A stretch of DNA of 64,000 bases, taken from Thermosulfurimonas marina. GTDB taxonomy: Bacteria > Desulfobacterota > Thermodesulfobacteria > Thermodesulfobacteriales > Thermodesulfobacteriaceae. The stretch covers positions 558,001 through 622,000 of the forward strand of contig NZ_CP042909.1 in NCBI RefSeq assembly GCF_012317585.1. Reading direction: 5' to 3'. Under the pieces are notes generated by a model. It worked only from the letters and a program-made list of their open reading frames with translations. It was not told the origin of the DNA and ran no database searches. Below, one piece after another: positions 4,029 to 33,406 of this stretch (within the stretch, counting starts at the first letter, position 1; every line of letters starts with the position of its first letter). Position numbers and translations under genes: made by a program.

Positions 4029-4030
4029 AG

Positions 4031-4054
4031 TTGGCTCGGGGTTTCCCGGGCCAA
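4031..4054 (-). terminator. Candidate intrinsic terminator after the lipoprotein gene
   Basis: On the minus strand a stem of about ten pairs with one mismatch (TTGGC-C-CGGG against CCCG-A-GCCAA, short A-rich loop) starts ten bases after the lipoprotein stop and is followed by CTTTGTTTTC. It could end the lipoprotein transcript. It also overlaps the apparent start of the DUF4105 gene, so it may instead act as a translational or attenuation element for that gene. The T-tract is interrupted. Confidence 0.4.
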
Positions 4055-4063
4055 CAGCAAAAA

Positions 4064-4434
4064 TTATTTACATTGGATATTTACATTAGAATCGTATTGC
4101 CACATAGCATTAGAAACATAATCCGTAGTAGAACCAAAAACTCCTCCACTTAAAAGGTTAACAAAGAAAACAGGATTAATCTTCTTATTCAATAAATACT
4201 GCTTTTGAGTACATTCAGGATCCAAAATTTTTATAATTTTATCTTTATTCTCTCTTTCTAATGTAACAATAGCAGGAGTAGAGTAAGTTTGTCCATCAAT
4301 TTCAAATTTGACACCTGTTTTTCCGGTAGAAGTAACATTGATTTTTTGAGTTTTCCCACTAAGGATCGTAGCACATCCAGAAAGAACAAAAGCCAAAACG
4401 ATCCACAAACATAAATACAAATAGCTCCCTCTTC
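4064..4434 (-). pseudogene. Lipoprotein gene body, cut from its start codon by an IS256-family insertion
   Basis: Encodes a lipoprotein of about 125 residues: a hydrophobic signal segment with lipobox LSGC, then CATILSGKTQ, a PEGA-like strand region (about 30-70) and the C-terminal motif NPVFFVNLLSGGVFG. That pattern is seen in small bacterial lipoproteins of unknown function. The reading frame has no native start here: removing 4435-5692 and one copy of the 8-bp repeat joins it to ATG AGA AGA GGG AGC at 5704, preceded by GGAGGGG and a consensus promoter. The frame does continue into the element, and a GTG at 4447-4445 would give a lipoprotein with leader VKHYRRGS, but no SD precedes it. AT-rich like its downstream neighbour. 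Confidence 0.85.
4427..4434. repeat. Target-site duplication, left copy (CCCTCTTC)
   Basis: Exact 8-bp direct repeat flanking the IS256-family element; the second copy is at 5693-5700. Eight or nine base duplications are usual for IS256-type elements. Confidence 0.93.
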
Positions 4435-5692: not shown

Positions 5693-5704
5693 CCCTCTTC
5701 TCAT
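5693..5704 (-). pseudogene. Detached first codons of the IS-disrupted lipoprotein gene
   Basis: Minus-strand ATG AGA AGA GGG (start at 5704), with SD GGAGGGG at about 5709-5715. These codons read M-R-R-G and continue exactly into S-Y-L-Y-L at 4426 when the insertion and one repeat copy are removed. They include the right target duplication (5693-5700). Confidence 0.88.
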
Positions 5705-5748
5705 CGCTCCCCTCCTTTTGTTTTTTTGGATTTGTTTTTTGGAATTCC

Positions 5749-5777
5749 GTATAACAAATCTCATAGCGAGTTGTCAA
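5749..5777 (-). promoter_or_regulatory. Sigma70-type promoter of the disrupted lipoprotein gene
   Basis: TTGACA (5777-5772), spacer of 17, then TTATAC (5754-5749) on the minus strand. Transcription would start near 5741, about 37 bases before the detached ATG. It lies downstream of the rpoC terminator, so the lipoprotein had its own transcript. The site is in AT-rich sequence. Confidence 0.75.
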
Positions 5778-5837
5778 GATGTTTTTATTCTTAATTAAAA
5801 TTCATTTATGGTGATAATTAAAAAACAAAAAAGCTTT

Positions 5838-5870
5838 TAAAAAGAAAAGGCCGCCCTCTCGGGCGGCCTT
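5838..5870 (-). terminator. Intrinsic terminator of the rpoC transcript
   Basis: Perfect 10-bp stem (AAGGCCGCCC at 5847-5856 with GGGCGGCCTT at 5861-5870, 4-base loop). On the minus strand it is followed by TTTTCTTTTT. It starts 25 bases after the rpoC stop and closes the ribosomal-protein/RNA-polymerase cluster. Confidence 0.92.
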
Positions 5871-5894
5871 CTTCTCGGCCAGGGAAAAATCTTC

Positions 5895-8800
5895 TTAGAA
5901 GGGTAGCTCCAGTTCGGCCTTCTTTTCCTTTTCCAGGGCCTTTTGTTCGGCCCGCATGTCGTAATAGACCCGGCCGGTGCCTGCGGGAATGAGACGCCCG
6001 ATGATCATGTTCTCCTTGAGGCCCCGCAGGTAGTCCACCTTACCCGCCAGCGCAGCGTCCGTAAGCACTCGGGTGGTCTCCTGGAAGGAGGCCGCAGACA
6101 GCCAGCTCTCGGTGTAGAGGGCGGCCTTGGTAATTCCCAGGACCACCGGTTCGGCCACCGCCGGACGCCCTCCCTGCCGCAGGACGCGCTCGTTTTCCTC
6201 CTCAAAAACGTGGCGGTCCACCAGCTCCCCGATCATAAAACGCGTGTCCCCCACCTCTTTGATCTTCACCTTCTTGAGCATCTGGCGCACGATGACCTCA
6301 AAGTGTTTGTCGTTGATCCGCACCCCCTGGAGCCGATAGACCTCCTGGATCTCCTCCACCAGGAATTTGGCCAGCTCCTTGACCCCCTTGACCCGCAGAA
6401 TGTCGTGAGGATTGGGGGAGCCCTCGATCAGGGGGTCTCCGGCCCGAATGTAATCCCCCTCCTGCACCGCCAGATATTTCCCCTTGGGAATGAGATACTC
6501 CTTGGGTTCCCCCACCTCCGGCTTGACCACGATCTTGCGCTTGCCCTTGAGCTCCTTGTCAAAGAGGACCTCGCCGTCGATCTCGCTGATCACCGCGTAG
6601 TCCTTGGGCTTTCGGGCCTCAAAGAGCTCGGCCACCCGGGGAAGACCACCGGTGATGTCCTTGGTCTTCACCGTCTCCCGCGGGATCTTGGCGATCACGT
6701 CTCCAGCCTCCACATAGTCGCCCTCCTGCACGGTAAGGATGGCCCCCACCGGAAGGAGATACCGGGCCTCCCCCCGGCCGGAGGGCAATTTTTTGGTCCG
6801 CCCCCGCTCGTCCTTAATGGAAATCCGCGGGCGATAGTCGGTGAGCTTATACTCCCGCACGATAATGCTCACCCGGCCGGTGATGGGGTCGGTGCGCTCG
6901 TCCACGGTGACCCCGTCAATGATGTCTCCGAATTTTACCTTTCCGGAGACCTCCGTGATAATGGGATTAGTAAAGGGATCCCACTCCACCAAGAGATCCC
7001 CGGGCTTGACCTCCTGTCCCTCTTTTACCCGGATCTTGGCCCCGTAAACCACCGGGTAACGTTCCTTCTCCCGTCCATCCGGGGCCACAATGGCGATCTC
7101 TCCCTGACGGTTGAGGGCCACCAGAGAGCCGTCCCGGGCCCGCACCGTGCGCAGATTGATAAATTTCACCTGACCCTGGGTCTGGGCCCGATGCTCACTC
7201 TGCTCCACGGCCCGGCTGGCCGTACCTCCGATGTGGAAGGTCCGCATGGTGAGCTGGGTCCCGGGCTCGCCAATGGACTGCGCGGCGATGATCCCTACGG
7301 CCTCCCCGATTTCCACCATGCGCCCGGTGGCTAGATCCCTTCCGTAACACTTGGCGCAAACTCCGTAACGGCTCTGACAGGTAAGGACCGAACGGATGGC
7401 CACTTTCTCGATTCCGGCCTCCCGCAGACGTTTTACCGCCTCCTCGTCGATCTCCTCGTTGGCCTTGACCAGCACCTCCCCGGTCACCGGGTCCACAACG
7501 TCCTCCAGGGCCACCCGACCCAACACCCGGTCCCACACCGGCTCCATGATCTCTCCGGCCTCAATGAGGTGCCCCACTTCAATCCCGTCGATGGTCCCGC
7601 AGTCTTCCTCCACGATGGTCACATCCTGGGCCACATCCACCAGACGACGGGTGAGATACCCGGCATTGGCGGTCTTGAGAGCCGTGTCGGCCAGCCCCTT
7701 CCGGGCTCCGTGAGTGGAGACAAAGTATTCCAGGACGGAAAGGCCCTCCCGAAAGTTGCTCTTAATGGGGGTCTCGATGATCTCTCCCGAGGGTTTGGCC
7801 ATAAGGCCGCGCATCCCGGCCAGCTGGCGGATCTGGTCGATGGAGCCCCGGGCCCCGGAGTAGGCCATTATGTAAACCGGGTTCATGCTGGGCCCTACCA
7901 CCTTCTCCCCGTTGGGCCCCACGTACTCCGCCGTCTCCATCTCCTTGACCATCTCCTGGGTGACCTTCTCCGTGGCCGCCGACCAGATATCCACCGTCTT
8001 GTTATAGCGCTCCCCGTCGGTAATGAGCCCCTCCTGGTACTGCCGCCGGATCTCCTCCACCTTCTTTTCTGCCTCGGCCAGGATCTCGGCCTTCTTCTTG
8101 GGGATCACCAGATAGTCCACACAGATGGAAAGTCCGGCCTCGGTGGCCATCTGATAACCCAGATCCTTGATGCGGTCGGCAAAAATCACCGTCTTCTTGG
8201 CCCCGGCCCGCCGGTAGGAGAGGTCGATCAGACGCTGGAGCTCTTTCTTGCGCAAAGGCTTGTTGTACTCCTCAAAGGGAATCTCTTCCGGCACAATGGT
8301 GGAGACGATCAGGCGTCCCGGAGTGGTCTCCACCAGCTTTCCGTCTAGACGCACCTTGATCCGCGCCTGGAGGTCCACCGCCCCCTCTTGATAGGCCAGA
8401 AGGGCTTCTTCCCGATTGCGAAAGGCCCGGCCCTCTCCCCGGGCAAAGGGCCGCTCCATGGTCATGTAAAAGAGTCCCAGAACCATGTCCTGCGTGGGGT
8501 AGACCACCGGAACCCCGCTTGCCGGAAGCAAAATATTATTGGTGGAAAGAAGGAGCACCCGGCATTCGGTCTGGGCCTCTACCGAAAGGGGCACGTGGAC
8601 CGCCATCTGGTCCCCGTCGAAGTCCGCATTATAGGCCACGCAAACCAGAGGATGGAGCTGAATGGCCTTGGAGTCGATGAGCACCGGCTCAAAAGCCTGG
8701 ATCCCCAGCCGATGAAGGGTGGGAGCCCGATTGAGCATCACCGGGAATTCCTTGACGATCTCCTCCAGGGCATCCCAGACCAGGGGATCTTCCTCCTCCA

Positions 8801-19148: not shown

Positions 19149-20417
19149 TTAGGCCTGGGCCTCCTCAGAGGACCCTTCGCCCTCCCCGGAAGAAGCCTCT
19201 TCCGCAGCCTCGGTGGAGGCCGGAGCGCTTGCGGCCTCCAGAGCGGCCATCCTGGCCCGCACATCCCGGCTGTATAGATCAAAGACATAGGCCGTAGTGC
19301 GGTAAACCAGGTGGGCAAACTTGGAATAGGGCACACTCAAAAAGAGCATAAAGACCGAGGCCAGATGCAGGGCGTACATTCCAGGATAGATGGTGCTTCC
19401 GGCAATCCGCAGAAGCTCCGTGAGCACCCCGGTCAATCCTACCGCCAGGATAAGATAGATGAGGAACCAATCCTGATAGCTGCTGGCCAGTTTACCCTCC
19501 GCTGCAGCGCGGCTGCGATTCACGATGACACTGATCACTCCGTAGAGGAGAAGAATAGCCCCGATGTTGGCCAAGATCTTAATGGGGTTATAGAGGGGCC
19601 ACGGGGTGTGGAATCCGAAGACATCCGCAGCGATGAAGACCACGGCAGTGACAAAGGCCAAAATAATGAAAGACCAAAGGAGCATCCGGTGGCCGTTGAA
19701 ACGCCAGCGATTGGCCCCGCACTCCAGAAAGCGGCTATGTGCCAGGATCTCGCGAAGGGCCGCCCCCAGATAAGTGGTCACCAAGGCCCAAAAACCCAGA
19801 CGATACGCCGCCGGTATCCCGGCATTTTCCACCAGTCCGTTCCACATGCGGTTGATCCCGATGGCCACCATGAGGACTACAAAGGCGGCAAGGGGCAAGA
19901 AAACCGCGTCCACCGCCACCACCCTAGGGCTTAACTTAAGGAAGAGGATGTGCACTTCTTCGGCACTCATGTGCGGCAGATAAGGTAGCGTGGGAAATCC
20001 CGGAACACCTCCAGCAAAGATGGAAAGGGAAAGCCAGACCGTGATCAGGGACAAAGCTATGAGGATGGGAAGCCCCCAGGGTTTGTTGTAAAAGGTCCAC
20101 AAGAACTTGAATTCGGTAAGCTCCCGGACCGCCATGTTCCGCAAGGCCCCCAACACGTCCCCCGGCCGGGCCCCCCGGGGACAATAAAGGGTGCAGTCCC
20201 CGCACTGATGACAGAGCCAGAGGGCCGGGTCCGAAAGGAGCTTTTCCTTGAATCCCCACTGCCCAAGGAGCATCTGTTTCCGCGGAAAGGGCACCTCCTC
20301 CGTGGCCAGAGGACAGACCGAGGTACAGGTGGCACACTGATAGCACTTCTTGACCGTATCCCCTCCGGCGGCCTGGATCTCCTTTACCGTCTGGACATCG
20401 GGCTCTATACGGGCCAT
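19149..20417 (-). CDS. qmoC: QmoC, membrane subunit of the quinone-interacting oxidoreductase
   Basis: 422 residues; HdrC/HdrE-like fusion. An N-terminal ferredoxin-like domain carries two 4Fe-4S motifs (C25, C28, C31, C35 and C69, C72, C75, C79). Six or so transmembrane segments follow from about residue 115, with histidines suited to heme b as in HdrE/NarI-like subunits. The tail is Ala/Glu-rich (about 393-422). The Qmo complex passes electrons from menaquinol to AprBA in sulfate reducers. qmoB precedes it by 11 bases and it is the last gene of the operon. Confidence 0.95.
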   Translation of the reverse strand: MARIEPDVQTVKEIQAAGGDTVKKCYQCATCTSVCPLATEEVPFPRKQMLLGQWGFKEKLLSDPALWLCHQCGDCTLYCPRGARPGDVLGALRNMAVRELTEFKFLWTFYNKPWGLPILIALSLITVWLSLSIFAGGVPGFPTLPYLPHMSAEEVHILFLKLSPRVVAVDAVFLPLAAFVVLMVAIGINRMWNGLVENAGIPAAYRLGFWALVTTYLGAALREILAHSRFLECGANRWRFNGHRMLLWSFIILAFVTAVVFIAADVFGFHTPWPLYNPIKILANIGAILLLYGVISVIVNRSRAAAEGKLASSYQDWFLIYLILAVGLTGVLTELLRIAGSTIYPGMYALHLASVFMLFLSVPYSKFAHLVYRTTAYVFDLYSRDVRARMAALEAASAPASTEAAEEASSGEGEGSSEEAQA

Positions 20418-20428
20418 ATCTTACCTCC

Positions 20429-22624
20429 TTACCATCCCTTAAAGGGACTTTCTCCGTATTCCTGGAGGAACTCTACAAATTTACCCATGATCTGCGGGAG
20501 TTTTTCCACCTCATCGATGGCCACAATCTCCATCGTGACCCGCTCGGTCTCCAGGGCCAGCTGCTGCAGGGTCTCGGCCACGTTTTCCATCCGCCGGTTG
20601 GCCAGCTCACTTCCTTTGATGAAATGGCACTGATAATTCTCCCCGAACTTGCAACCCAGAAGGAGCACCCCGTCAAAACCTTTGCTCATGGCGTCCTTCA
20701 CGAAGGAGACGTTCACCGCTCCCAGACAGCGCACCGGGATCACCCGGAAGGCCACCGGAAGATTGATCCGCCGATAGGCCGCCATGTCCAGCGCGGGATA
20801 GGCGTCATTTTCGCAGACCAGGGCCAGCACCCGGTAGAGCCCATAGTCCGGCTCCGGCATCTCGCAGGCCTTGATCATCTGGGTGACCATGTCAATGCTG
20901 TAGTCCTTGAAATTGATGATCCGCTGCGGACAGGCCCCGAAGCAGGTCCCACACCGACGGCACCGCGTGGGATTGGGCATGGGGGTCCCATCCTCGGTCT
21001 CGTCCAGGGCCCCGAAGGGGCACTCCTCCGTACACCGCTTACACTGGGTGCACATCTTGAGGTCCCATTCGGGATAGGCAAAGTCCCAGGTCCGGGGATG
21101 CACGGCATGGCCCATCTCGATGGCCTTGAGACACTGCAGGGCCTTAAGGGCCGCCCCGGTAGCATCCTCCATGGCCTGAAAGATGGTCATGGGCTGATGC
21201 ACCGCCCCTGCGGCATAAATACCGGTACGCCGGGTCTCATAAGGGAAACAGATGTAATTAGAGTCCGCAAAACCATAAAAGAGTTCCAACTCCGGAAAGC
21301 CTGCCCCCTGGCGGTACTCGAGGGGAATGATGGGATCTTCGGCCGTAGCCGGGACCATACCCGTGGCCAGAACCACCATGTCCACAGGAATCTCCATCTC
21401 CTCCCCGAAAAGGGTCTGATCCACCTTGACCACTAGCTTCCCATCCTCTTCGGCAATCCCTTGGATCTCTCCCTTGGTAAGAAAGATCCCGGGGTCATCC
21501 TGCATATTCCGATAGAAGTTCTCGTAGATCCCCACCGTACGCATGTCTTTATAAATAATGTAGGCCTTGGCCTCGGGATCGAGCTCCCGCACATACTTGG
21601 CCTGCTTGAGAGAGACCAGACAGCAGACCGAGGAGCAGTAAGGGAGGTGATTCTCGTCCCGCTGTCCGGCACACTGGACAAAAAGGACGCTTTTGACCGG
21701 GGAGCCGTCCTTTTTCTTGATCTCCCCCTTGGCGGCCATTTCCTCGAATTCCACATTGGTGACCACATTGGCCAACTTTCCGTAGCCCAATTCCTCAAGC
21801 TTGGAGGCGTCGTAGGGCTTCCAGCCCGCAGCCACCACAATGGCTCCCACCTTGACCTCTTCCTCGCTTCCACCCTTTTTGATGGTCACCGTAAAGAGCC
21901 CCGGAGCCCCCTTGATGCTGGTCACCTGAGCCCCGGTATATACGGTGATCTTTTCATTCCCCTGCACCTCGGAGATGAGCCTTCCCACAATGGGCTCGGT
22001 GATCCCGTCGAAGGGAGGCTCGGCCTTGACCTGGGCCTTCATTTTGGCCGCAAAGCCCCCGAGTTCCTTCTCCTTCTCCACCAGGATGGCCGGATGCCCC
22101 GCCTTGGCCACCTCAAGGGCCGCGGTCATTCCGGCCACTCCGCCCCCGATCACCAGCACGGTCTTAGAAATCTCCTCTTCCGGTTTATACGGTTCAGGGA
22201 ATTTATAAGCCTGGAGCTTGGCCACCCCCATACGCACATAATCCTTAGCCAGGGACATGAGTTCATCCTTGAAGGTAACCCCCTCGGCCACCTCCTTGGT
22301 GTCGTCCACGGATTCCTCCCCCTCCCCGGGCACCGGGAAGCGGCTCCAGACCACCCCCTCCCGGAGGTTTACCCGCTCTACCGCCACCTTGCCGAAGTCA
22401 AAGACCTCCCAGTTTACCCGTGGAGAACAGGCACAGATGGCCACCGCCTCCAGGCCCTCGTTCTTAATGGCCTCATTGATGGCCTGAACCCCTTCCTTGC
22501 TACAGAGGAATTCCCGGGAGGCGACGAACTGGGCCCCCTGGTCCTGGGCCGCCGCCTCCAGTTCCGAGATCTCCAGCCTCTCCCCAATATTACAAGAGGT
22601 GCAGATGAAGGCTCCTATCTTCAT
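20429..22624 (-). CDS. qmoB: QmoB, HdrA/MvhD-like flavoprotein
   Basis: 731 residues. An N-terminal segment (1-150) of the HdrA type with CTSCNIG is followed by an FAD-binding Rossmann core (VLVIGGGVAGMTAALEVA), the HdrA motif VQCAGQRDENHLPYCSSVCC, two ferredoxin motifs (CTQCKRCTEECPFG and CRRCGTCFGACPQ) and a C-terminal MvhD-like domain (VIPVRCLGAVN ... LLLGCKFGENYQCHFIKG). This layout is diagnostic of QmoB. It links the soluble QmoA/AprBA side to the membrane subunit. It follows qmoA by four bases. Confidence 0.96.
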   Translation of the reverse strand: MKIGAFICTSCNIGERLEISELEAAAQDQGAQFVASREFLCSKEGVQAINEAIKNEGLEAVAICACSPRVNWEVFDFGKVAVERVNLREGVVWSRFPVPGEGEESVDDTKEVAEGVTFKDELMSLAKDYVRMGVAKLQAYKFPEPYKPEEEISKTVLVIGGGVAGMTAALEVAKAGHPAILVEKEKELGGFAAKMKAQVKAEPPFDGITEPIVGRLISEVQGNEKITVYTGAQVTSIKGAPGLFTVTIKKGGSEEEVKVGAIVVAAGWKPYDASKLEELGYGKLANVVTNVEFEEMAAKGEIKKKDGSPVKSVLFVQCAGQRDENHLPYCSSVCCLVSLKQAKYVRELDPEAKAYIIYKDMRTVGIYENFYRNMQDDPGIFLTKGEIQGIAEEDGKLVVKVDQTLFGEEMEIPVDMVVLATGMVPATAEDPIIPLEYRQGAGFPELELFYGFADSNYICFPYETRRTGIYAAGAVHQPMTIFQAMEDATGAALKALQCLKAIEMGHAVHPRTWDFAYPEWDLKMCTQCKRCTEECPFGALDETEDGTPMPNPTRCRRCGTCFGACPQRIINFKDYSIDMVTQMIKACEMPEPDYGLYRVLALVCENDAYPALDMAAYRRINLPVAFRVIPVRCLGAVNVSFVKDAMSKGFDGVLLLGCKFGENYQCHFIKGSELANRRMENVAETLQQLALETERVTMEIVAIDEVEKLPQIMGKFVEFLQEYGESPFKGW

Positions 22625-22628
22625 GGAA

Positions 22629-23870
22629 TTACCCCCTTACAATGGTCTGAATGGCCTTAAGGGCCGCGGCCGTAGCCGTCTCATTCGAGGTCATCACATC
22701 CAAGGGAAGCCGCGCACACCCGCAGGCGTACATCCCCTCCGAGACCCGCACAAATCCGTTTTCGTCCACCGAGACCCCGGGTACCGCCCCCTCGGCCAGG
22801 GAAGGCTGCATACCCACCGCCAGCACCACCATATTTACCCGCTGCTGGACCTTCTTTCCGGAAAGCGTATCCTCGGCGGTCACAATCAGATCCTTGGTCT
22901 CCGGATCCTCCTCGATCTTGGCCACCTTGCCCTTGATGAAGTTGATCCGGGCCTCTTCCTGGGCCCGCCGGAGGAACTTCTCATAACGACCCGGGGTCCG
23001 GATATCAATGTAAAAGATATAACTTTCGGTCTCCGGATTCTGCTCGGCCAGATAGAGACTCTGCTTAAGGGAAGCCAGGCAGCAAATATAGGAACAGTAA
23101 GGAAGATGGTTCTCATCTCGGGAGCCCGCACACTGGACAAAGGCCACCGTCTTGGGTTCGGTCTGGTCCGAGGGCCGGAGGATCTTGCCTCCGGTAGGTC
23201 CGGTGGGCGAAGCCAAGCGCTCCATCTGCATATTGGTAATCACATTGGCAAACCGCCCCCAGCCCAGGTTGTCGAGCTTGGAAGCATCATAAGGCTTCCA
23301 GCCCGTGGCCCAGATAATGGCCCCCACCTCCAATTCCACCGTCTGGGGCTGCATATCCGGCTCGATGGCGTTGTACTTGCAGGCCGCCATAATCCGGTCC
23401 AGATCCCCTTCGGCCAGGGCCGACTTGTCCAGCACATAGCGGGCCGGAAAGGCCATGGGATGGGGAAGATAGATGGCCTTGGTCTTGGAGAGCCCGAAAT
23501 CGAAATCGTTTACCCGCTCCCCCTGGCAGACCTTTTCACATTCCCCACAGGCCGTGCAATTTTCGTTCACATACCGGGGGGCGATCTCCACCTTTACCTT
23601 GTAATTTCCCGGCCCCCCGGAGATCTCCTTCACCGTGGCCATGGTGTAAACGGTGATGCGGGGGTTGGTCTTGATACGCCGATAGTTCATCTCCAGACCG
23701 CAGGTGGGAGGACAGAGCTTGGGGAAATAGTAGCGCAACTGAAGGACCCGGCCTCCCAAAGTGGGCTCCTTCTCCACCAGATAGACATCGTATTCCATCT
23801 CGGCCGCTTCCACGGCCGCCGTAATGCCACTTATCCCTCCTCCTACCACCAAAATCTTATCCTGAGCCAT
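22629..23870 (-). CDS. qmoA: QmoA, HdrA-like flavoprotein
   Basis: 413 residues with the ATG at 23870 behind a GGAGGCGG SD; a longer frame upstream runs through a hairpin and is not credible. FAD-binding motif VVGGGISGITAAVEAAE at the N-terminus, a 4Fe-4S-type set around NENCTACGECEKVCQGE, and the HdrA hallmark VQCAGSRDENHLPYCSYICC. QmoA is thought to contact AprBA and may support electron confurcation. First of three tightly packed qmo genes, separated from aprA by 117 bases with two hairpins. Confidence 0.95.
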   Translation of the reverse strand: MAQDKILVVGGGISGITAAVEAAEMEYDVYLVEKEPTLGGRVLQLRYYFPKLCPPTCGLEMNYRRIKTNPRITVYTMATVKEISGGPGNYKVKVEIAPRYVNENCTACGECEKVCQGERVNDFDFGLSKTKAIYLPHPMAFPARYVLDKSALAEGDLDRIMAACKYNAIEPDMQPQTVELEVGAIIWATGWKPYDASKLDNLGWGRFANVITNMQMERLASPTGPTGGKILRPSDQTEPKTVAFVQCAGSRDENHLPYCSYICCLASLKQSLYLAEQNPETESYIFYIDIRTPGRYEKFLRRAQEEARINFIKGKVAKIEEDPETKDLIVTAEDTLSGKKVQQRVNMVVLAVGMQPSLAEGAVPGVSVDENGFVRVSEGMYACGCARLPLDVMTSNETATAAALKAIQTIVRG

Positions 23871-23897
23871 AACCGCCTCCTCCAGGTTTTGATAAAC

Positions 23898-23944
23898 CCT
23901 TGGCTTGGACGAAGGGCCCTTCCAACCCCTCGTCCAAGCCAAGG
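23898..23944 (-). repeat. Perfect 15-bp inverted repeat in the aprA-qmoA gap
   Basis: Arms 23898-23912 and 23930-23944 are exact reverse complements (CCTTGGCTTGGACGA and partner) around a 17-base loop that itself contains GGGCCC. On the minus strand it lies between the aprA terminator and the qmoA SD. It may stabilise the qmo mRNA 5' end or mark a processing site. No U-run follows. Confidence 0.8.
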
Positions 23945-23987: not shown

Positions 23988-25988
23988 TTACGGTCCCAGC
24001 GGATCCGGGATGATCTGGATGTAGGGGAACTTCTCCATCTTCCACTCGCCGGTCTCCGGATCCACGCTGGAGAGGGTGAAGCAGCGCCAGCTGGCATCGT
24101 CGAGATTGGGGAAGTCGGTCCGGTAGTAGTAACCGGGATAACGGGTCTCCTCACGGAAGAGGATGTGCCGCAGGTGGGCCTCCGCGGTCCATACCCGGTG
24201 GATGTTCTCCCAGGCCCGCATGAGCTCGTGCAGATCCCGGGCCGCAGCCTTCTGCATGTCCTCCTTGAGCATAGTGAGCAACTCCAGTCCGGTCTCGAGC
24301 ATGATCTTGTTGGTCTGATAGTAGGTGGAGGTCCCGGCCACATACTCGTCCATGAGTTTCATGAGCCGGTTCTGGATCTGCCGCGGCAGGAGGTAGTTGG
24401 GGTTGATCTCGTAGACCGTGGTGGCGTTCTTGAACTCCTGGAAGCGGTACCAGGGAGCATAGATCTCCTTCTTATACTCCTCGGGGCTGCGCCTCGGGGT
24501 GGGCTTAAAGTCCTTGTGGTCCAGACAGAACTTCACCATGGCCTTGGCCGCAATCCGGCCCTCCACGTGCGAACCGGAGGAGAACTTGTGTCCGCAGGCC
24601 CCCACCGTGTCTCCGGCGCAGAACATGCCCTTTACGGTGGTCATGCGGTTGTAACGGCCGATCTCATCCCAGGGTTTCTTGTATTCCTCGGGTACCCAGT
24701 CCTCGTCCGGACCGCAGCACCAGGCCCCGGCACAACCGGCGTGCGAACCCAGGAAGTAGGGCTCGGTGGGCATGATCTCCGAAGGCTTCTTCTCCGGCTC
24801 GATGTTCAGGCAGGCCCAGAGTCCAGCCTGGGTCACACACATGTCCAGGAAGTCTTCCCAGGCCTCGGCCTCGAGCTTCTTGAACTCCTTCTTGTCCATG
24901 GTCTTCATGGCCTCCTGCAGGGCCCACTCGGTGTGCATGAAAATAGGCCCCCGGCCCTCTTTCATCTCGATGAGCATGGCGTGGTTCCGCAAACAGGTTC
25001 CCACCACCGAGGCCTCGCTGTAGGGCTTGAACTTCTCGAGCTCACCCTTGTGCTTGGCGATATAGTCCTCATCGAAGGCGTTGGTGGCCCGGGCCTTGAA
25101 GAGGAGGAACCAGGCCCCCACCGGACCATAACCATCCTTGAAGCGGGCGGGAACGAAACGGTTCTCCATAAGGACCAACTTGCCACCGCTCATGAGGACC
25201 ATGGCGTAACCGGAGCCAGGGTTCCAGACCGGATACCAGGTCCGGCCCATACCCTCACCCTGAGAGCGGGGACGGAAGATGTTCACCGCTCCCCCAGTGG
25301 CGATTAAGGTGGCGTTGGCCTTAATGACATAGACCTTATTTTCCCGCACGGAAAAGCCCACCCCACCGCAGCAGCGGTTGGGCTCGTTGGCGTCCATAAG
25401 CGGCCGCACAATAAAGACCCGCTCCAGGATCTTTCCGTTTTCGCCCATCTGGTCCATGGCGTTCTTGGCCGCCTCGGCCACAATCACCTTGTAGGACTCA
25501 CCGTTGATCATGATCTGCCAGCGTCCGGAACGCACCGGCTTGGCCCCACCCTTTAAGGTCAGCCCCTTGGCCTTGGCCTCGGCCCCGTCCAGGGTCTTGC
25601 CGTCTTCGGTCTTCTTCCAGATGGGAAGACCCCACTCCTCAAAGCAGTGCACGGTGTCGTCTACGTGACGGCCCACATCGAAGGAAAGGTCCTCCCGGAT
25701 GATCCCCATGAGGTCGCAACGAACCATGCGCACGTAGTCGTCCGGGGTGTTTTCGCCGATGTAGGTGTTGATGGCCGAAAGACCCATGGCCACAGCCCCG
25801 GAACGCTCGAGGGCCGCCTTGTCGCAGAGCACAATCTTGAGACCGGCCTGCTTAGCCCAACGCACGGCCTCTACCGCCGCCCCACAGGCGGCCATACCCC
25901 CACCGACAATAAGAATGTCGGTCTCCATCTCCACGATTTCCGGTTCGGCACACTCCAAGCCCGGATTGTAAGCCCAAATCCTACCCAT
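23988..25988 (-). CDS. aprA: Adenylylsulfate reductase, alpha subunit
   Basis: 666 residues; the FAD subunit that reduces APS to sulfite and AMP. The dinucleotide-binding motif ILIVGGGMAACGAAVEAV lies near residue 25. Other AprA landmarks are the substrate-pocket stretch VRENKVYVIKANATLIATGG (in parts), RSQGEGMGRTWYPVWNPGSGYAM (in parts) and the C-terminal FRWETRYPGYYYR-like LFREETRYPGYYYRTDFP. It follows aprB by 46 bases. The length and motif order match sulfate-reducer AprA. Whether the enzyme runs reductively cannot be read from the sequence, but the adjacent qmo genes favour reduction. Confidence 0.97.
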   Translation of the reverse strand: MGRIWAYNPGLECAEPEIVEMETDILIVGGGMAACGAAVEAVRWAKQAGLKIVLCDKAALERSGAVAMGLSAINTYIGENTPDDYVRMVRCDLMGIIREDLSFDVGRHVDDTVHCFEEWGLPIWKKTEDGKTLDGAEAKAKGLTLKGGAKPVRSGRWQIMINGESYKVIVAEAAKNAMDQMGENGKILERVFIVRPLMDANEPNRCCGGVGFSVRENKVYVIKANATLIATGGAVNIFRPRSQGEGMGRTWYPVWNPGSGYAMVLMSGGKLVLMENRFVPARFKDGYGPVGAWFLLFKARATNAFDEDYIAKHKGELEKFKPYSEASVVGTCLRNHAMLIEMKEGRGPIFMHTEWALQEAMKTMDKKEFKKLEAEAWEDFLDMCVTQAGLWACLNIEPEKKPSEIMPTEPYFLGSHAGCAGAWCCGPDEDWVPEEYKKPWDEIGRYNRMTTVKGMFCAGDTVGACGHKFSSGSHVEGRIAAKAMVKFCLDHKDFKPTPRRSPEEYKKEIYAPWYRFQEFKNATTVYEINPNYLLPRQIQNRLMKLMDEYVAGTSTYYQTNKIMLETGLELLTMLKEDMQKAAARDLHELMRAWENIHRVWTAEAHLRHILFREETRYPGYYYRTDFPNLDDASWRCFTLSSVDPETGEWKMEKFPYIQIIPDPLGP

Positions 25989-26034: not shown

Positions 26035-26499
26035 TTACCCCGCAAACTTGATGGCCACCGGATTCTGCGGCACGGCCGGGGTTACCCCGTCGGCCATCTC
26101 GGTAAAGAGCCGGTTGTCTCCCAGAGCGCTCAGGTCCGGATCCGGCTTGCCCACCGTGGGATCAGCCGAACCTTCGGGCGTGGTCCGGATGGGGAACTTG
26201 AAGCGCTTGACCACCCCATTGCGGAACTTGATGGTCCACATGATGTCCGTGGTGCCCCGCATGGGCTGACAGGAGGCCCCCAGCGGCGAGAAGTCCGCAT
26301 AGTGCCGTACAGAAATGGCCCCCTGCGGACAGCTCTTCACACAGCTATAGCACTCCCAGCACTGATCCGGCTCCTGGTTGTAGGCCTTCATGTTCTCGGT
26401 GTCCAGGATCATGAGGTCGTTGGGGCAGATGTACATGCAAACCGTCCGGTCACCACCCTTACATCCGTCACACTTTTCAGGATTTACATAGCTCGGCAT
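26035..26499 (-). CDS. aprB: Adenylylsulfate reductase, beta subunit
   Basis: 154 residues; ferredoxin-like subunit that carries electrons to AprA. Eight cysteines for two 4Fe-4S clusters: C10, C13, C21, C25 and C47, C50, C53, C57. A beta-rich tail follows (WTIKFRNGVVKRFKFPIRTT in part), as in known AprB. Gene order aprB-aprA and spacing are standard. Confidence 0.97.
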   Translation of the reverse strand: MPSYVNPEKCDGCKGGDRTVCMYICPNDLMILDTENMKAYNQEPDQCWECYSCVKSCPQGAISVRHYADFSPLGASCQPMRGTTDIMWTIKFRNGVVKRFKFPIRTTPEGSADPTVGKPDPDLSALGDNRLFTEMADGVTPAVPQNPVAIKFAG

Positions 26500-26660: not shown

Positions 26661-27020
26661 TTATTCGGTTTCAATGTCCGGGGGAGGAAGGTATTCAGAC
26701 TCCTTGGCCGCCATCTCCTTGATCTCGTCGATCTTGGCCAGCACTCCCTCCACCACCTCCGGACCCAGAGACTTCTTTTCTACCACCTGATTGAAAAGTT
26801 CGCGCATGAAGGCCACCGGCACATCGGTAATGGCTCCCCGGGAGTCGATACGCGCAGTCTCAAACTCTTTGAGGATCCGGTCCTTAAGCTCTTCATTTAC
26901 CTCCACCTCCAGGAGCCGCAGCTCCCCTCCGAACATATATTTGATGTGTTCCTCCAGACCGGTTCCCCGCAGTTTGCTCATCCGCATATCGTCCAAAAGT
27001 ACCACCATAAAGTAGGCCAT
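26661..27020 (-). CDS. Conserved small protein between sat and aprB, function unknown
   Basis: 119 residues, acidic, probably soluble: a beta-rich start (MAYFMVVLLDD), the segment IKYMFGGELRLLEVEVNEE in parts, and a long helical C-terminus ending in EYLPPPDIETE. No cysteines, no membrane segment, no motif I recognise. From memory, Archaeoglobus fulgidus also has a small reading frame between sat and aprBA, so the position seems conserved across sulfate reducers. It may be an assembly or interaction factor for Sat or AprBA; that is inference only. It follows sat by 30 bases with an SD (GGAGGGAG). Confidence 0.8.
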   Translation of the reverse strand: MAYFMVVLLDDMRMSKLRGTGLEEHIKYMFGGELRLLEVEVNEELKDRILKEFETARIDSRGAITDVPVAFMRELFNQVVEKKSLGPEVVEGVLAKIDEIKEMAAKESEYLPPPDIETE

Positions 27021-27050
27021 TTTTTCTCCCTCCTTCCAAATTTTTGCGGT

Positions 27051-28409
27051 TTAGAGGTCCTCCAGATCGACCTCGAGCTCCTTCTCTTTATTGATCACAT
27101 ACTTTTCGTTGCAGAAGGGATACCCGAACTTCTTCCACCACTTGACCACCACTTTATAGACTTCGGGACGCATAATGATCGCCGGAGGCTGCACCCCCTC
27201 GGCCACCATGCCCCGCAGGAAGCTTCCCGAAAGCTTCTCCCGTTTGTGGCCGCAGGTCTCCGAGTAGGCCATCTCCTTACAGGTGGGGCAGTAGGAGAAC
27301 TCGCGCATGTTCTGCGGCCGAATGAGAAGCCCGTAGGGCACATCCGTGGGCGGGGCGGGAAAGCCAAAGCTGGGAATACCCTTGGTCCAGAGGATCTGAG
27401 TGGCAAACTTATCGTAGTACTCACCCACAGCCGCGTGGTCACGCCCGAACATGTGGTGGGTGCACCCCATGTTCTGACGAATGATTCCGTGAAGCAGAGA
27501 CTCCAAGGGGTTCCCGTAGCGCATATCCCAGAGAACGATGCTCACCAGGTGCCGCTCCGGCTTGATATAACCATACTTGTTGACCGCCTCATGGGCCTCC
27601 ACAATGGCCTCGTCCGGATAGTCCCCCCGGCGCTTCACCCCGATCACGGCGTTGACCAAAATGCCGTGGCAGGGCTCCACATCCCCGGTAAAGGCCGCAC
27701 ATTTCATCAGAAACTCGTGGCCTACGTGGGGCACGTTCCGGGTCTGGTGGTTAATGACCGTACGCCAGCCGCGCTTCTCAAACTCCTCCCGGCTCTTGCG
27801 CGGCGGGAACCAGAACCGATCAAAAGGCGGCTTAAGCTTGGGCGGATTGATAATGGTGTACTTTCCGGCAAGGACCCAGGGCTGGTGACTGCGATAGATC
27901 ACCCATCCCGGGTGCTTTTTGTCAAACTTTTCCCGCACCACCTCGGGATTGGCCTCCGGATCCCCAAAGGTCTTGTAGGCCAGCTCCTCGGGATCGATCT
28001 CGTAGATCTCCTCGATGTCCAGAATGGCAAAAGGCTTCCCCTTCAGAGTCAATCCCAACCGATCCCCAACTTCTACTCCCAGCTTGTTGAGGTCGTCCTT
28101 GCTAATGTCGAAGACCAGGGGATAGGGAAAGATCCACTCGTTGAGAAGCCGGCGCTCCTTGAGGACCCGCTCCACCTCGGCCTGCTTCATGGAGCCTTCG
28201 ACCGGGCTAAAGAATCCGTAGCAGATGGACATAATCTCCCGGTACACGTTGCGCACCGGCACCCCGGTCTCGTAATGGAGGGTGGGCTTGATCTCGTAAG
28301 TGGCGTTACAACTCTTCCAGAGCTTGCGGGCTACCCTTTTGTCCTCAATAACCCTTTCTACCAGACGCCCACCGTGCGGCAAAGGCCGTTCGATCAAAAG
28401 ACGCGACAT
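27051..28409 (-). CDS. sat: Sulfate adenylyltransferase (ATP sulfurylase)
   Basis: 452 residues. Activates sulfate with ATP to APS and pyrophosphate, the first step of dissimilatory sulfate reduction. Key motifs are QTRNVPHVGHE (equivalent to QxRNxxHxxH) and GRDHAAVG, with FGFPAPPTD later; there is no C-terminal APS-kinase domain. A Cys/His set in the region YCPTCKEMAYSETCGH may bind zinc, as in dissimilatory Sat. The ATG at 28409 stands six bases after AGGAGG; a GTG one codon upstream is less well placed. First gene of the sat-orf-aprBA-qmoABC set, behind a strong promoter. Confidence 0.96.
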   Translation of the reverse strand: MSRLLIERPLPHGGRLVERVIEDKRVARKLWKSCNATYEIKPTLHYETGVPVRNVYREIMSICYGFFSPVEGSMKQAEVERVLKERRLLNEWIFPYPLVFDISKDDLNKLGVEVGDRLGLTLKGKPFAILDIEEIYEIDPEELAYKTFGDPEANPEVVREKFDKKHPGWVIYRSHQPWVLAGKYTIINPPKLKPPFDRFWFPPRKSREEFEKRGWRTVINHQTRNVPHVGHEFLMKCAAFTGDVEPCHGILVNAVIGVKRRGDYPDEAIVEAHEAVNKYGYIKPERHLVSIVLWDMRYGNPLESLLHGIIRQNMGCTHHMFGRDHAAVGEYYDKFATQILWTKGIPSFGFPAPPTDVPYGLLIRPQNMREFSYCPTCKEMAYSETCGHKREKLSGSFLRGMVAEGVQPPAIIMRPEVYKVVVKWWKKFGYPFCNEKYVINKEKELEVDLEDL

Positions 28410-28432
28410 CACACACCTCCTTCTCCAAGACT

Positions 28433-29212: not shown

Positions 29213-30315
29213 ATGACGATATCACCATTTTAGAGCTCCTGGGGGATTATCTTGAAGCCCTGGGCTACCGGGTCCTTCGAGCCGGAAACGGACGCGAAGG
29301 GCTGGAGTTGGCCCGGAAGCATCTTCCGGATCTCATCCTGCTGGATGTAATGATGCCCGAGATGTCGGGTTTTGAGGTCTGTCGGGAACTGAAACGGGAT
29401 CCGGAGACCACAGATATTCCGGTAGTCATGGTCACCGCCCTGGGCGAGGTGGAAGACCGGGTCCGGGCGCTGGAGGCCGGGGCCGACGACTTCCTTACCA
29501 AACCGGTGGCCCTCCCGGAGCTCAAGGCCCGGGTAAAGTCCCTCCTTGAGGTTAAGGCCTACCGGGACCACCTCAAACAACACAAGGCCGCCCTAGAAAG
29601 AGAAGTAGACCGCAAGACCCGGGAACTCCAGCGGGCCTTCGAGGCCCTGCGGGAGGCCCACCGCCGCATCAAGGAGCTTTCGCTAGAGGTCATTGTGCGG
29701 CTTTCTCGGGCCGCGGAATATCGCGACGAGCATACCGGAGAGCACATCTTGCGGATAGCCCATTATTCGGCCATGATCGCCCGCAAATTGGGGCTCAACG
29801 AAGAGGCGGTGGAAAGCATCCTCTATGCCGCTCCCCTTCACGATATCGGAAAGATCGGTATCCCGGACCAGATCCTCCTCAAGCCCGGCCCCCTCACCCC
29901 GGAAGAATGGGAGATCATGAAAAAGCATACCAAGATCGGGGCCGAGATCCTCAAGGGGACCCGAAGCGGTTTTGTAAGGGTGGGCGAGGTGGTGGCCCTC
30001 TATCATCACGAAAGGTGGGACGGCACCGGCTATCCCCAAGGCCTCAAGGGCCCCGAGATCCCCCTTGCGGCGAGGATTGTAGCGGTAGCCGATGTCTTTG
30101 ATGCCGTAACCAGTGACCGTCCTTACCGCAAGGCCATGAGCAACGAGGAAGCCTTTCGCATCATCGAGGAAGGTGCCGGTAGCCATTTTGACCCCCGGGT
30201 GGCCCGGGTCTTTCTCAAAAGCCGAGAAGAAATCCTCTTAATTCAGGAAAGGTTCCAGGATCGGGAACCCCCGAAACTCTATCAGCTGGTAAAAAGCCTC
30301 CGTGACCAAAGGTAG
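29122..30315 (+). CDS. Response regulator with HD-GYP phosphodiesterase output
   Basis: About 397 residues. Receiver domain with DDD acidic pocket, phospho-acceptor in LILLDVMMPEM and Lys in FLTKPV, then a coiled linker (HKAALEREVDRKTRELQRA in part) and a complete HD-GYP domain: HTGEH, HDIGKIGIPD, HHERWDGTGYPQG. HD-GYP proteins hydrolyse cyclic di-GMP. I use the ATG at 29122, which overlaps mobA by 91 bases, as the nearest start to the receiver; there is no ATG, GTG or TTG closer. The adjacent kinase gene, its likely partner, is broken, so its input may be lost. Confidence 0.92.
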   Translation: MEFLKHKLPGGSETDRSTASGKKAPLILCVDDDITILELLGDYLEALGYRVLRAGNGREGLELARKHLPDLILLDVMMPEMSGFEVCRELKRDPETTDIPVVMVTALGEVEDRVRALEAGADDFLTKPVALPELKARVKSLLEVKAYRDHLKQHKAALEREVDRKTRELQRAFEALREAHRRIKELSLEVIVRLSRAAEYRDEHTGEHILRIAHYSAMIARKLGLNEEAVESILYAAPLHDIGKIGIPDQILLKPGPLTPEEWEIMKKHTKIGAEILKGTRSGFVRVGEVVALYHHERWDGTGYPQGLKGPEIPLAARIVAVADVFDAVTSDRPYRKAMSNEEAFRIIEEGAGSHFDPRVARVFLKSREEILLIQERFQDREPPKLYQLVKSLRDQR

Positions 30316-31091
30316 ACCCTCTTGGGCCTCCCAAATAGGCGAAATCTTGGGAGAGTTGTTTCAGCGCTTAGAGGCCTCTCCGGGGATCTTCTATAACCAT
30401 CTCTGCGAGAGGATACGCCAGCTCTTTGAGGCCGATTTGGTATGGTTTGGGACAGTGGATGCCCAGGGAGAGGTGAAGCCCCGGGCCTTTTCCGGAAAAG
30501 AGGCCGGCTACCTCAGGGGTTTACAGATTAATATTCGGGATCCCCTCCTCTCCCAAGGCCCTACCGGCCAGGCCCTTCTCAAGAAAAATATAATGACCGA
30601 AAGTGACATCCTCCGGTCCCCTCGGTTTGCTCCCTGGCGCCAGAAGGCCTTGGCTTACGGATTTCGTTCCACGACCTGTCTTCCCCTATTTTTCGGGAAG
30701 AACCCTGCGGGACCCTCAACCTTTATTCTACTCGCCCCAAACATTTTTCCTCCCGGACCCTCCGTCAACTCACCCCCTATCTTCAGGTCCTGGGCTGTGC
30801 CGTAAAAACCTTCGAAGCCTTACAGAAAAAGCGGCTGGCCCTGGAAAAACTCCAAAGAAAGTGCCTGCGTCTTGAAGAGTGTCTGTATCTCCGGGAAAGC
30901 CGCATACGTTACTTGGAAGAGTTTCATCAACGCTGGCTAGCTGTTTTGGCCCATGAATTGCGCACTCCCCTTGCTACTATAGCTGGTTTTACCGAATTTC
31001 TCTTAGAAGAACTCCCCGGACCCCTGAATTCTCGACAGCGAGAAAAGCTCCTCCACATCCAGAAGGCTCGGGACAGCTCCTGGAAATATTA
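30302..31091 (+). pseudogene. GAF-sensor histidine kinase, 5' part; frameshifted and cut by IS630-type element
   Basis: Starts at GTG 30302, overlapping the regulator stop by 14 bases. A GAF domain reads in frame to TTCLPLFF, then frame is lost in the T5 run at 30689-30693; adding one T restores REEPCGTLNLYS and the rest of the GAF domain. The new frame continues through a coiled linker to the H-box AVLAHELRTPL. A second shift lies in the GGG at 31070-31072; adding one G gives KARGQLLEIL, which runs exactly across the insertion point into the 3' part. The gene is thus disrupted three times and cannot give a kinase. Either shift alone could be a sequencing error; the insertion cannot. Confidence 0.9.
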
Positions 31092-32192
31092 AGAGGTGCA
31101 GAAAATGTATGACATGAAAGAATTTTTGTGGTAGTCTTCCCCTATGAAAGACGCTCGCTATTTATCCCCAAAAGCTCAAGAAGCCATAAGACTTAGAGCC
31201 GTCCGAGCTGTCCTCAATGGCCAGTCTCAAACCCAGGTGGCTCAAACTTTTGGTGTGGCCAGAGGGACCATTTCAAGATGGCTCAAAATCTATCGGGAAA
31301 AAGGCGAAGAAGCCCTTTTGGCCAAACCTCGCGGACGACCTAAGGGAGGAAAGCTTAAGGGTTGGCAGGCGGCGCTGATTTGCAATCTCATAAGGGACAG
31401 ATGTCCAGACCAGATGAAGCTTCCCTTTGCTCTTTGGACTAGAGAGGCTGTGGGGCAGCTCATAGAGAGGAAGTTTGGGATCAAGCTATCGGTATGGACG
31501 GTAGGGCGGTATTTGAGGCGGTGGGGCTTTACGCCGCAGAAGCCTTTGAAGCGGGCCTATGAGCAGAATCCTAAGGAAGTAAAGGCGTGGCTTGAGGAGG
31601 AATATCCACGGATCAAGCAGAAGGCCCGAGAGGAAGGAGCGGAGATTTACTGGGGAGACGAGACAGGGATCAGGTCTGACCATCAGGCAGGAAGGAGTTG
31701 GGCCCCTAAGGGGGAAACACCGGTGGTGGAAGTAAGCGGCAAGCGATTTCAGTTCAACATGATATCGGCCATAAGCAACCGAGGGAAGATGAAATTCATG
31801 ATTTTTGGGGAGCGGTTTAATGCGGAGATATTTATCGAATTTTTACGAAGACTCATAAGATCCAACGAAAAAAGAAAGATATTTCTGATAGTTGACAATC
31901 ATAGGGTACATCATGCGAAGAAGGTGTCAAAGTGGGTGAGTAGACATAAAGAAGAGATAGAGATTTTCTTTTTACCGAAATACAGTCCGGAGCTGAATCC
32001 GGATGAATATCTGAATCAAGACGTGAAGACAAACGCAGTGGGAAGGAGGAGGTCCCGGACGAAAGAAGAATTGATGGGCAACGTGAGGAGCTATTTGATG
32101 AGCACGCAAAGGCAGCCAGAGATAGTGAAGAGTTACTTCCGTGCTCCGGCAGTCAGATATGCCATGTAATGTCACACATTAATTGCTCGGAT
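31092..32192 (+). mobile_element. IS630-family (Tc1/mariner-like) insertion sequence, 1101 bp
   Basis: Flanked by TA at 31090-31091 and 32193-32194, the TA duplication expected for IS630. The ends are imperfect inverted repeats: AGAGGTGCAGAAAATGTATG against ATCCGAGCAATTAATGTGTG, both followed by ACAT, 16 of 24 positions equal. Removing the element and one TA rejoins the host kinase as GAA ATA TTA ATA ATA GAA. It holds one intact transposase gene and looks complete. Confidence 0.9.
31144..32169 (+). CDS. IS630-family transposase
   Basis: 341 residues in one uninterrupted frame. An N-terminal helix-turn-helix (about 20-50, TQVAQTFGVARGTISRWL) binds the ends, a second winged-helix-like region follows (WTREAVGQLIE ... 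WTVGRYLRRWGF), and the DDE catalytic domain has Asp172 (YWGDETG), Asp251 (LIVDNHRVHH) and Glu288 in PELNPDEYLN, the family signature. Many IS630 members need a frameshift; this one does not. Start ATG at 31144. Confidence 0.95.
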   Translation: MKDARYLSPKAQEAIRLRAVRAVLNGQSQTQVAQTFGVARGTISRWLKIYREKGEEALLAKPRGRPKGGKLKGWQAALICNLIRDRCPDQMKLPFALWTREAVGQLIERKFGIKLSVWTVGRYLRRWGFTPQKPLKRAYEQNPKEVKAWLEEEYPRIKQKAREEGAEIYWGDETGIRSDHQAGRSWAPKGETPVVEVSGKRFQFNMISAISNRGKMKFMIFGERFNAEIFIEFLRRLIRSNEKRKIFLIVDNHRVHHAKKVSKWVSRHKEEIEIFFLPKYSPELNPDEYLNQDVKTNAVGRRRSRTKEELMGNVRSYLMSTQRQPEIVKSYFRAPAVRYAM

Positions 32193-33406
32193 TAATAATA
32201 GAAGAACTGCGCAAGACCGCTTCTTATACCAGAGAAAAATTCCTGGAGAGTCCTTTTTCCTTCAAAGCCTTGCTAGAAAGCCTCCTGGCCCGCTTTCGTT
32301 CCCGTATCCAGGAAAAAGGGCTCAAGGTGGTGGTAGAAGCCCCCGAGAATCTGGAGGGGCGGGGAGATCCGGTCCGTCTCAAAGAAGCCTTCCATCAACT
32401 TCTTTCCAACGCGGTAAAATTTTCCCCTCCCGGAGGAAATATTTATCTCCAGGTACAACCCCTTGAGGATCTCCGAGGCCGGAAATGGATCTCGGTAGAG
32501 GTCCGGGAAGAAGGACCGGGAATCCCTCCAGAACTAACCTTTCGGATCTTCGAGCCCTTTTTCCAGGGGAAAAGCCTTTACACCGCTAAACCCCAAGGGC
32601 TGGGGCTGGGCCTTCCCTTAGCCCGAGATCTCATTGAAGCCCACGGAGGGGCCCTTCTCTCCTTACCCTCCACTAAAGGGGCCCGCCTGGTGGTCTTCCT
32701 CTCGGAAACTCTTCTTCAAAGAAGGCCTGCTCCAGAAATTCTTGTTTCCGAAAACCGGCCAGAAGTGGCCTGGCGAGTGGCTTTTCTTTTCGCCACCGAA
32801 GGGCTACGCCCCATAGTAATCCCGGGGCTGGCCCTCCTTTACCAACATCTCCACCAAGATCCTTACGAAAAGCTCCTCGCCCTAGATCCTTGGGAAGCCG
32901 GTCCTGCCGCCTCAACCTTTCTCAGAAAAGTCTCCTCTTTGAGACTTCCTGTACTCTTTTATCGGGCCAGCTCTGAAGGCCGGATTTCTCTAGCCCTGGG
33001 AGCCAACTTTCTTTCCCTAGCCCCTCTTTCTTTTCCGGGGGTAAGAAGGCTCCTCCAGAGCTATTTAGAGCTTCTCGAGATGCGGCCGTCCAGCATTTTT
33101 CTTGCCAGAAGACCCCATCTTCTAAGAAAAGCCCGGCGTCTGGTCAAAGCCTTGGGGATAGAGCCTCTCGAAAGCCCTCTCGAGGCCGAGACCTTGGGGA
33201 TAGACCTGGGGCTTCCTGCAGAAGAATGGCTAACTCTTCTTCCCCTTCTCCCGCCTGCCAAACCCCTTTTTGCCCATCTGGATCAGAAGGGGCTGCTTCC
33301 TCTCGAGCCTTTCCAGGAAATCCCTCCAGAGGTCTTTCTGCGAGAGATCTCAAGGATTCTCGCTTTCCGCGAACCGGAAGTAGGCCGCACAGGCCCCCTC
33401 ACTTGA
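32193..33406 (+). pseudogene. Histidine kinase, 3' part: ATPase domain plus receiver-like tail
   Basis: Continues the gene broken at 31091. The end of the dimerisation helix (LIIEELRKTASYTREKF) leads to the HATPase domain: N-box QLLSNAVKFS, G1 EEGPGIPPE, F-box IFEPFFQG, G2 GLGLGLPLA. About 200 further residues follow (EILVSENRPEVAWRVAFLFATE in parts) that resemble degenerate receiver domains without a clear acceptor Asp. A TTG at 32183 inside the element could start translation but would yield no H-box. The end overlaps hypD on the other strand by 57 bases. It would have been a hybrid-like kinase feeding the upstream HD-GYP regulator. Confidence 0.87.

Follow-up and report, generated by a model that had tools for sequence, protein, structure and literature searches.

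The small DUF6955 gene between sat and aprB of Thermosulfurimonas marina accompanies one class of ATP sulfurylase

ATP sulfurylase (Sat) carries out the first step of dissimilatory sulfate reduction. In the window analyzed here, a 64,000-nucleotide stretch of the Thermosulfurimonas marina genome (NZ_CP042909.1, positions 558,001 to 622,000), a small gene lies between sat and aprB, and so between the genes for the maker and the user of APS. The original prediction read it as a conserved gene of unassigned function in a sulfate-activation operon, and took its place to suggest a role in channeling, assembly, or regulation. Which of its two neighbors does the small protein serve?

The gene is an intact, ATG-initiated open reading frame of 119 codons, and GGAAGGAGGGAGAAAAA precedes its start codon with a GGAGG 8 nt away, so that the earlier description of a real small gene with a good Shine-Dalgarno sequence and spacing holds. 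It is separated from the sat stop codon by 30 nt and from aprB by 161 nt. The gene order in the window is sat, the small gene, aprB, aprA, qmoA, qmoB, and probable qmoC (Table 1). A scan for promoters and terminators around the small gene returned nothing above shuffled expectation, and the source genome, a single contig of 1.76 Mb, carries one copy. Because the protein matches the Pfam family DUF6955 (PF22271), has 19 relatives in named genomes, and shows a dN/dS of 0.03-0.06 in three of six pairs (those with close relatives, dS being saturated in the other three), the frame is more than a chance one; it is a real gene under purifying selection. Elsewhere in the window, at 30302-33406 on the plus strand, a sensor-kinase gene is apparently split by a transposase, with a GAF piece, a DDE_3 transposase (31144-32169), and a HATPase_c piece.

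Table 1. Positions in the window of the DUF6955 gene, its neighbors, and the segments discussed in the text
Feature	Positions	Strand	Description	Basis
DUF6955 gene	26661-27020	-	119 aa, 13.6 kDa, pI 4.7, no cysteine	Open reading frame, ribosome site, PF22271 (E=6e-33), relatives
Ribosome-binding region	27026-27037	-	GGAAGGAGGGAG, GGAGG 8 nt before ATG	Read directly from sequence
Well-conserved loop, residues 56-68	26817-26855	-	ARIDSRGAITDVP	Family alignment
C-terminal tail	26664-26708	-	Contains KESEYLPPPDIE; low model confidence	Conserved only in the window's subfamily
sat	27051-28412	-	ATP sulfurylase, 453 aa, DUF6955-linked class	Pfam/NCBIfam, locus comparison, tree
Sat loop	27714-27740	-	RNVPHVGHE, class signature	RNPxHxxH in the other class
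Sat C-terminal segment	27054-27125	-	PF..E.Y motif	In 43/49 linked and 0/60 unlinked Sats
aprB	26035-26499	-		Pfam/NCBIfam
aprA	23988-25988	-		Pfam/NCBIfam
qmoA	22629-23942	-	HdrA-like; start codon from a mechanical listing, true start may lie further in	Pfam/NCBIfam; name from operon order
qmoB	20429-22624	-	HdrA/MvhD-like	Pfam/NCBIfam; name from operon order
Probable qmoC	19149-20417	-	4Fe-4S domain	Name from operon order

The match to DUF6955 scores 113.3 bits against a gathering score of 27 (E=6e-33) and spans the full profile, with residues 3-94 aligned to positions 1-91 of 91; none of the NCBIfam models matched. The protein is a member of a family to which Pfam gives no function, and a search of the open-access literature found no paper on DUF6955. 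Its relatives in named genomes, 19 in number and 67-94% identical, include proteins of Thermosulfurimonas dismutans and Thermodesulfatator autotrophicus, and all 19 of their genes also lie downstream of sat. The copies linked to sat make up two branches of the family, A (the window's) and B, while the nine that are not beside sat form a separate, divergent branch C. Across 62 distinct members that were aligned, P68 and G32 are present in all and D59 in 61, and a loop at residues 56-68 is well conserved. The window's subfamily differs from the rest in an extra conserved C-terminal tail, and this tail, with its KESEYLPPPDIE, is a candidate docking peptide.

An AlphaFold2 model built from 20 close sequences gives a confident, small structure (pLDDT 86, pTM 0.77), in which a strand, a helix, two strands, a helix, and a further strand are followed by helices and a loose C-terminal tail. 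Neither the window protein nor a profile of the B branch has a significant match in a sequence search of solved structures. Fold searches of the PDB and of viral models likewise returned no trustworthy match, which does not make the fold new. In the comparison with PII and ferredoxin-like folds, Foldseek gave weak matches only (best E 0.76, TM about 0.2), and the best hits from VIA-align, up to a Z of 2.8, were to unrelated chains. Recurrent weak matches to the PII fold were dropped at a TM of about 0.2. Profiles of the three branches found no DUF6955 relative in the viral collection, and PADLOC and PHROGs gave no match. The window protein might be compared with DsrD in the way it works, both being small and encoded in an operon next to an enzyme central to sulfate respiration; the comparison is one of analogy, and no sequence relation between the two was found (PF08679 is not matched, and DUF6955 is the one family listed up to E=1).

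The distribution of the family was surveyed in 198 genomes of the phylum, from which the Sats were also taken, and in 14 control genomes. DUF6955 occurs in 42 of the 198, with 46 copies in total. Of these, 36 immediately follow sat on the same strand, 9 lie elsewhere, and 1 is at a contig end (G163). Besides the window's own, 32 of the 35 sat-linked copies start no more than 52 nt from the sat stop codon or overlap sat, as judged from mechanically assigned start codons. A profile search had been proposed by the original prediction, and homologues are indeed present in the sat-apr operons of other organisms; the gene can be called a conserved one of unassigned function in sulfate-activation operons, as a member of PF22271 whose relatives lie downstream of sat. 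The view that it holds a conserved place between the maker and the user of APS did not survive the same survey. The fetched stretch downstream contains aprB at 17 of the 36 sat-linked copies and lacks it at the other 19, a count limited by stretches that end with short contigs. In G038, a single-contig genome, sat and DUF6955 lie far from aprA on the same contig, and AprBA 86-95% identical to its counterparts occurs without the gene, as set out below.

AprA is nonetheless a common companion at the level of the genome, scoring over the curated cut-off in 41 of the 42 carriers. Among the 115 genomes without AprA over the cut-off, DUF6955 was found in one, G108, which is 90% complete. By a hand count, AprA scores over the cut-off in 83 genomes, and 42 of these have no DUF6955. 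Of the controls, only Sulfolobus acidocaldarius (1/14) carries the family; it has a Sat, and its AprA match is below the cut-off.

The window Sat contains ATP-sulfurylase and PUA_2 domains, and when it was used as a query, all 36 matches with at least 41% identity and at least 227 bits adjoined a DUF6955 gene, against none of the other 102, a set which includes weak or fragmentary matches, one of them covering just 46 residues of an A-type Sat where a contig ends. Matches and DUF6955 places were compared by hand, with adjacency taken from coordinates for Sat matches whose loci were not fetched. G163, with DUF6955 at the edge of one contig and the 5' end of an A-type Sat at the edge of a second, stands outside the 36, its Sat piece being counted among the 102. 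Four further Sat fragments (G023, G047, G113, and G142) have best matches at 37-42% identity over about 125-234 residues and below 113 bits. No DUF6955 was found at their fetched loci; the fragments from G023 and G113 contain the RNP loop, and those from G047 and G142 end short of it. Among the fetched loci, picked from DUF6955 matches and from Sat matches, DUF6955 accompanies 51 of 51 distinct Sats of the linked class vs 0 of 60 others. In the sampled genomes of the phylum, each sufficiently complete Sat of a single clade has DUF6955 immediately downstream, no Sat outside this clade has it there, and the split of its presence by Sat class is without exception in the sample.

This class is also visible in the enzyme itself. 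A tree of 109 Sats places the linked ones on one side of a single branch with an SH-aLRT of 100, a value from a quick method at a split where long branches meet. Every one of the 49 linked Sats carries the loop RNVPHxGHE, which is absent from all 60 unlinked ones; RNPxHxxH is seen in 59 of the 60 and in none of the 49. All 49 linked Sats have V and not P after R-N, and HxGH where the commonest form of the other class has HRxH. They keep the Q-T-R-N ahead of the changed letter. The window Sat shares with the RNP-motif ATP sulfurylases the two domains, GRDHA, and QTRN and differs from them at the V after R-N and at HxGH. A C-terminal segment with a PF..E.Y motif is a second feature of the linked class and a candidate contact surface for DUF6955. 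The nearest solved structure by sequence is a methanogen enzyme (8a8d), and a structure prediction of the window Sat from a shallow alignment gave an unusable model (pLDDT 39).

Published work on Sat describes the RNP and GRD loops as strictly conserved, in an alignment that includes the Archaeoglobus fulgidus enzyme (PMC3779200). The residues QTRN contact APS in that paper's Allochromatium vinosum comparison, and the paper recognizes no separable functional classes of Sat. Judged by its loop sequence, the RNVPHxGHE class departs from the strict RNP conservation described there. A comparable small frame in Archaeoglobus had been mentioned in the original prediction, and the literature bears this out: the operon in A. 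fulgidus is named a 'Sat-ORF2-AprAB operon', with sat and aprAB within AF1667-AF1670, and the passages on the operon state no function for ORF2 (PMC3949148). ORF2 has the same place as the window gene, between sat and the apr genes, according to the text of that paper; that ORF2 is a DUF6955 protein would be a guess. The alignment in PMC3779200 implies an ordinary RNP loop for the A. fulgidus Sat and, if so, this enzyme does not belong to the linked class despite its ORF2. Open-access searches on AF1668, ORF2, a gene downstream of sat or between sat and apr, and channeling found nothing on function.

What the gene owes to AprBA can be judged from natural exchanges of Sat. G120 and two genomes of the same genus, G017 and G055, have AprB 95%, AprA 93-95%, and QmoA 95% identical, and Sats only 29% identical; G120 has a linked Sat with DUF6955, while G017 and G055 have the other Sat and lack DUF6955. 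G222, a single-contig genome from the window's order, has AprB and AprA 86% identical to those of the window, an other-class Sat directly before AprBA, and no DUF6955. Because of these exchanges, AprBA of the window's kind can be said to do without DUF6955, which comes with its Sat; the presence of DUF6955 is shown to be independent of AprBA. G215, which lacks Sat and DUF6955, was set aside because its contig stops some 500 bases beyond aprA. A separate arrangement is seen in L014, from a record named Desulfonauticus, where two unlike sat genes (29% identical) lie back to back at 2696-6351. The other-class Sat there is divergent beside aprBA, and the linked Sat is paired with DUF6955.

These exchanges bear on the proposal that the DUF6955 protein bridges Sat and AprBA as a scaffold, passing APS across. 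Such a role would suit a gene that, in the window, has sat on one side and aprB on the other, and that is followed by aprB at 17 of the 36 sat-linked copies, in a family whose carriers have AprA over the cut-off in 41 of 42 genomes. We nevertheless consider it quite improbable, given AprBA of 86-95% identity that occurs with another Sat and without DUF6955, the 19 of 36 loci with no aprB in the fetched stretch, and S. acidocaldarius, which has DUF6955 and an AprA match only below the cut-off. Co-variation gives a mixed answer in the comparison of AprA with Sat. Pairwise distances of Sat and DUF6955 correlate with r=0.87 in 30 A pairs and r=0.74 in 19 B pairs. In the 12 A loci that include aprA, r is 0.96 for Sat and DUF6955 and 0.36 for AprA and DUF6955; leaving out L014 raises the AprA value to 0.51, and leaving out L056, itself a swap case, as well raises it to 0.66, and the Sat value stays at 0.96. 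The 9 B loci do not favor Sat, with r=0.80 for Sat and DUF6955 and 0.91 for AprA and DUF6955, and here the distances track AprA at least as well as Sat, as channeling would have it. Since the gene is missing beside nearly the same AprBA when the Sat is of the other class, channeling to AprBA and assembly of AprBA, two of the roles first proposed, are disfavored; a role on Sat, which may be its regulation or assembly, is favored.

Genomes with two linked Sats point the same way. G074 and G107 have two such enzymes each, with subfamily A paired with A and B with B, and G136 has two A-type pairs of Sat and DUF6955. The tie to one Sat class, the independence from AprBA, and these matched pairs argue that DUF6955 works on Sat. 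Much of the pattern could be explained by a single ancient gene pair that has stayed together, and it might then be asked whether the gene is a hitch-hiker, kept beside sat by old linkage with a function not tied to Sat. The tree does fit one origin of the pair. We give this idea very little credence, as dN/dS is 0.03-0.06 in the three computable pairs, sat and DUF6955 have stayed together where aprBA is no longer nearby and where Sat identity is down to about 40%, and two pairs are kept in each of G074, G107, and G136.

The nine copies of branch C count against a role for DUF6955 on Sat only. Five of them, in L054 and L058-L061, belong to dsrAB operons, the one in L065 is close to dsrAB but on the opposite strand, and three lie in other settings. 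Eight of the nine are in genomes where no linked-class Sat was found; the ninth genome, G182, combines a C copy at dsrAB with a B copy at sat. The order in the dsrAB operons is ferredoxin, DUF6955, a protein of 113-133 aa, a TPR protein, dsrA, and dsrB, with genes assigned by Pfam in L059 and by BLAST clusters in L054, L058, L060, and L061. L059 further contains dsrD and, as the presumed dsrN, a gene resembling CobB/CobQ. The 113-133 aa frame, which separates DUF6955 from the TPR gene ahead of dsrA, is itself conserved in these five loci, and its copy in L059 (6104-6505) has no Pfam match. At L065, a YcaO-domain gene (5092-6405, minus strand) lies between dsrAB and the divergent DUF6955 copy.

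Alternatively, the family may be a general sensor or regulator of sulfate respiration, binding, for example, APS, sulfite, or a nucleotide, and serving several steps while being most often placed beside sat. Six of the nine branch C copies are found within dsrAB operons or close to them, G182 has its two copies at sat and dsrAB, and 41 of 42 carriers in the sample have AprA. All of this agrees with a general factor, and the conserved D59, P68, and basic residues could, from the alignment, form a ligand site. We regard this reading as unlikely, since DUF6955 is absent from 42 of the 83 genomes whose AprA passes the cut-off, the split by Sat class is exceptionless in the sample, and the fold matches lend no support to a ligand-binding family. 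Branch C near dsrAB may instead represent a paralogue taken on for the sulfite-reductase step.

The reading we prefer, and think probable, is that DUF6955 is an accessory protein, small and soluble, that serves a single class of Sat. It would be a non-catalytic subunit bound to the linked Sat, most likely at a surface specific to that class, and once bound would stabilize the enzyme or tune its activity, somewhat as DsrD does with DsrAB. The changed RNVPHxGHE loop and the C-terminal segment of Sat are natural candidates for what it meets. The nearest rival is a folding or assembly helper needed for making the linked Sat and absent from the finished enzyme. The same genetic evidence of class split, tree, and motif would be expected of it, and the protein, being short and acidic and having a flexible tail that is conserved, might suit the task; it matches no chaperone family in Pfam or NCBIfam, and we rate a helper of this kind as rather doubtful, although the present data would suit a helper and a subunit alike.

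The accessory role on Sat can be taken a step further, as a tentative proposal that we hold to be possible but not probable. There may be a two-component class of ATP sulfurylase, made up of a catalytic RNVPHxGHE Sat and an obligate non-catalytic DUF6955 subunit by which the enzyme is completed or controlled. The arrangement might set it for fast turnover in both directions in organisms that reduce sulfate or disproportionate sulfur, and a paralogue of the subunit would later have moved to dissimilatory sulfite reductase. T. dismutans is a disproportionator of sulfur in which Apr and Sat are suggested by the authors to run backwards, Sat in this direction being proposed to make ATP (PMC4911364). 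The same paper gives its sat as TDIS_1516 and its aprB as TDIS_1514, and TDIS_1515 is presumably the DUF6955 gene.

If a class of Sat with a changed loop and its own partner is true, the solved Sat structures would miss part of the enzyme as it occurs in many sulfate reducers. DUF6955, a Pfam family without a function, gains a clear test, and the search for its partner shifts from AprBA to Sat.
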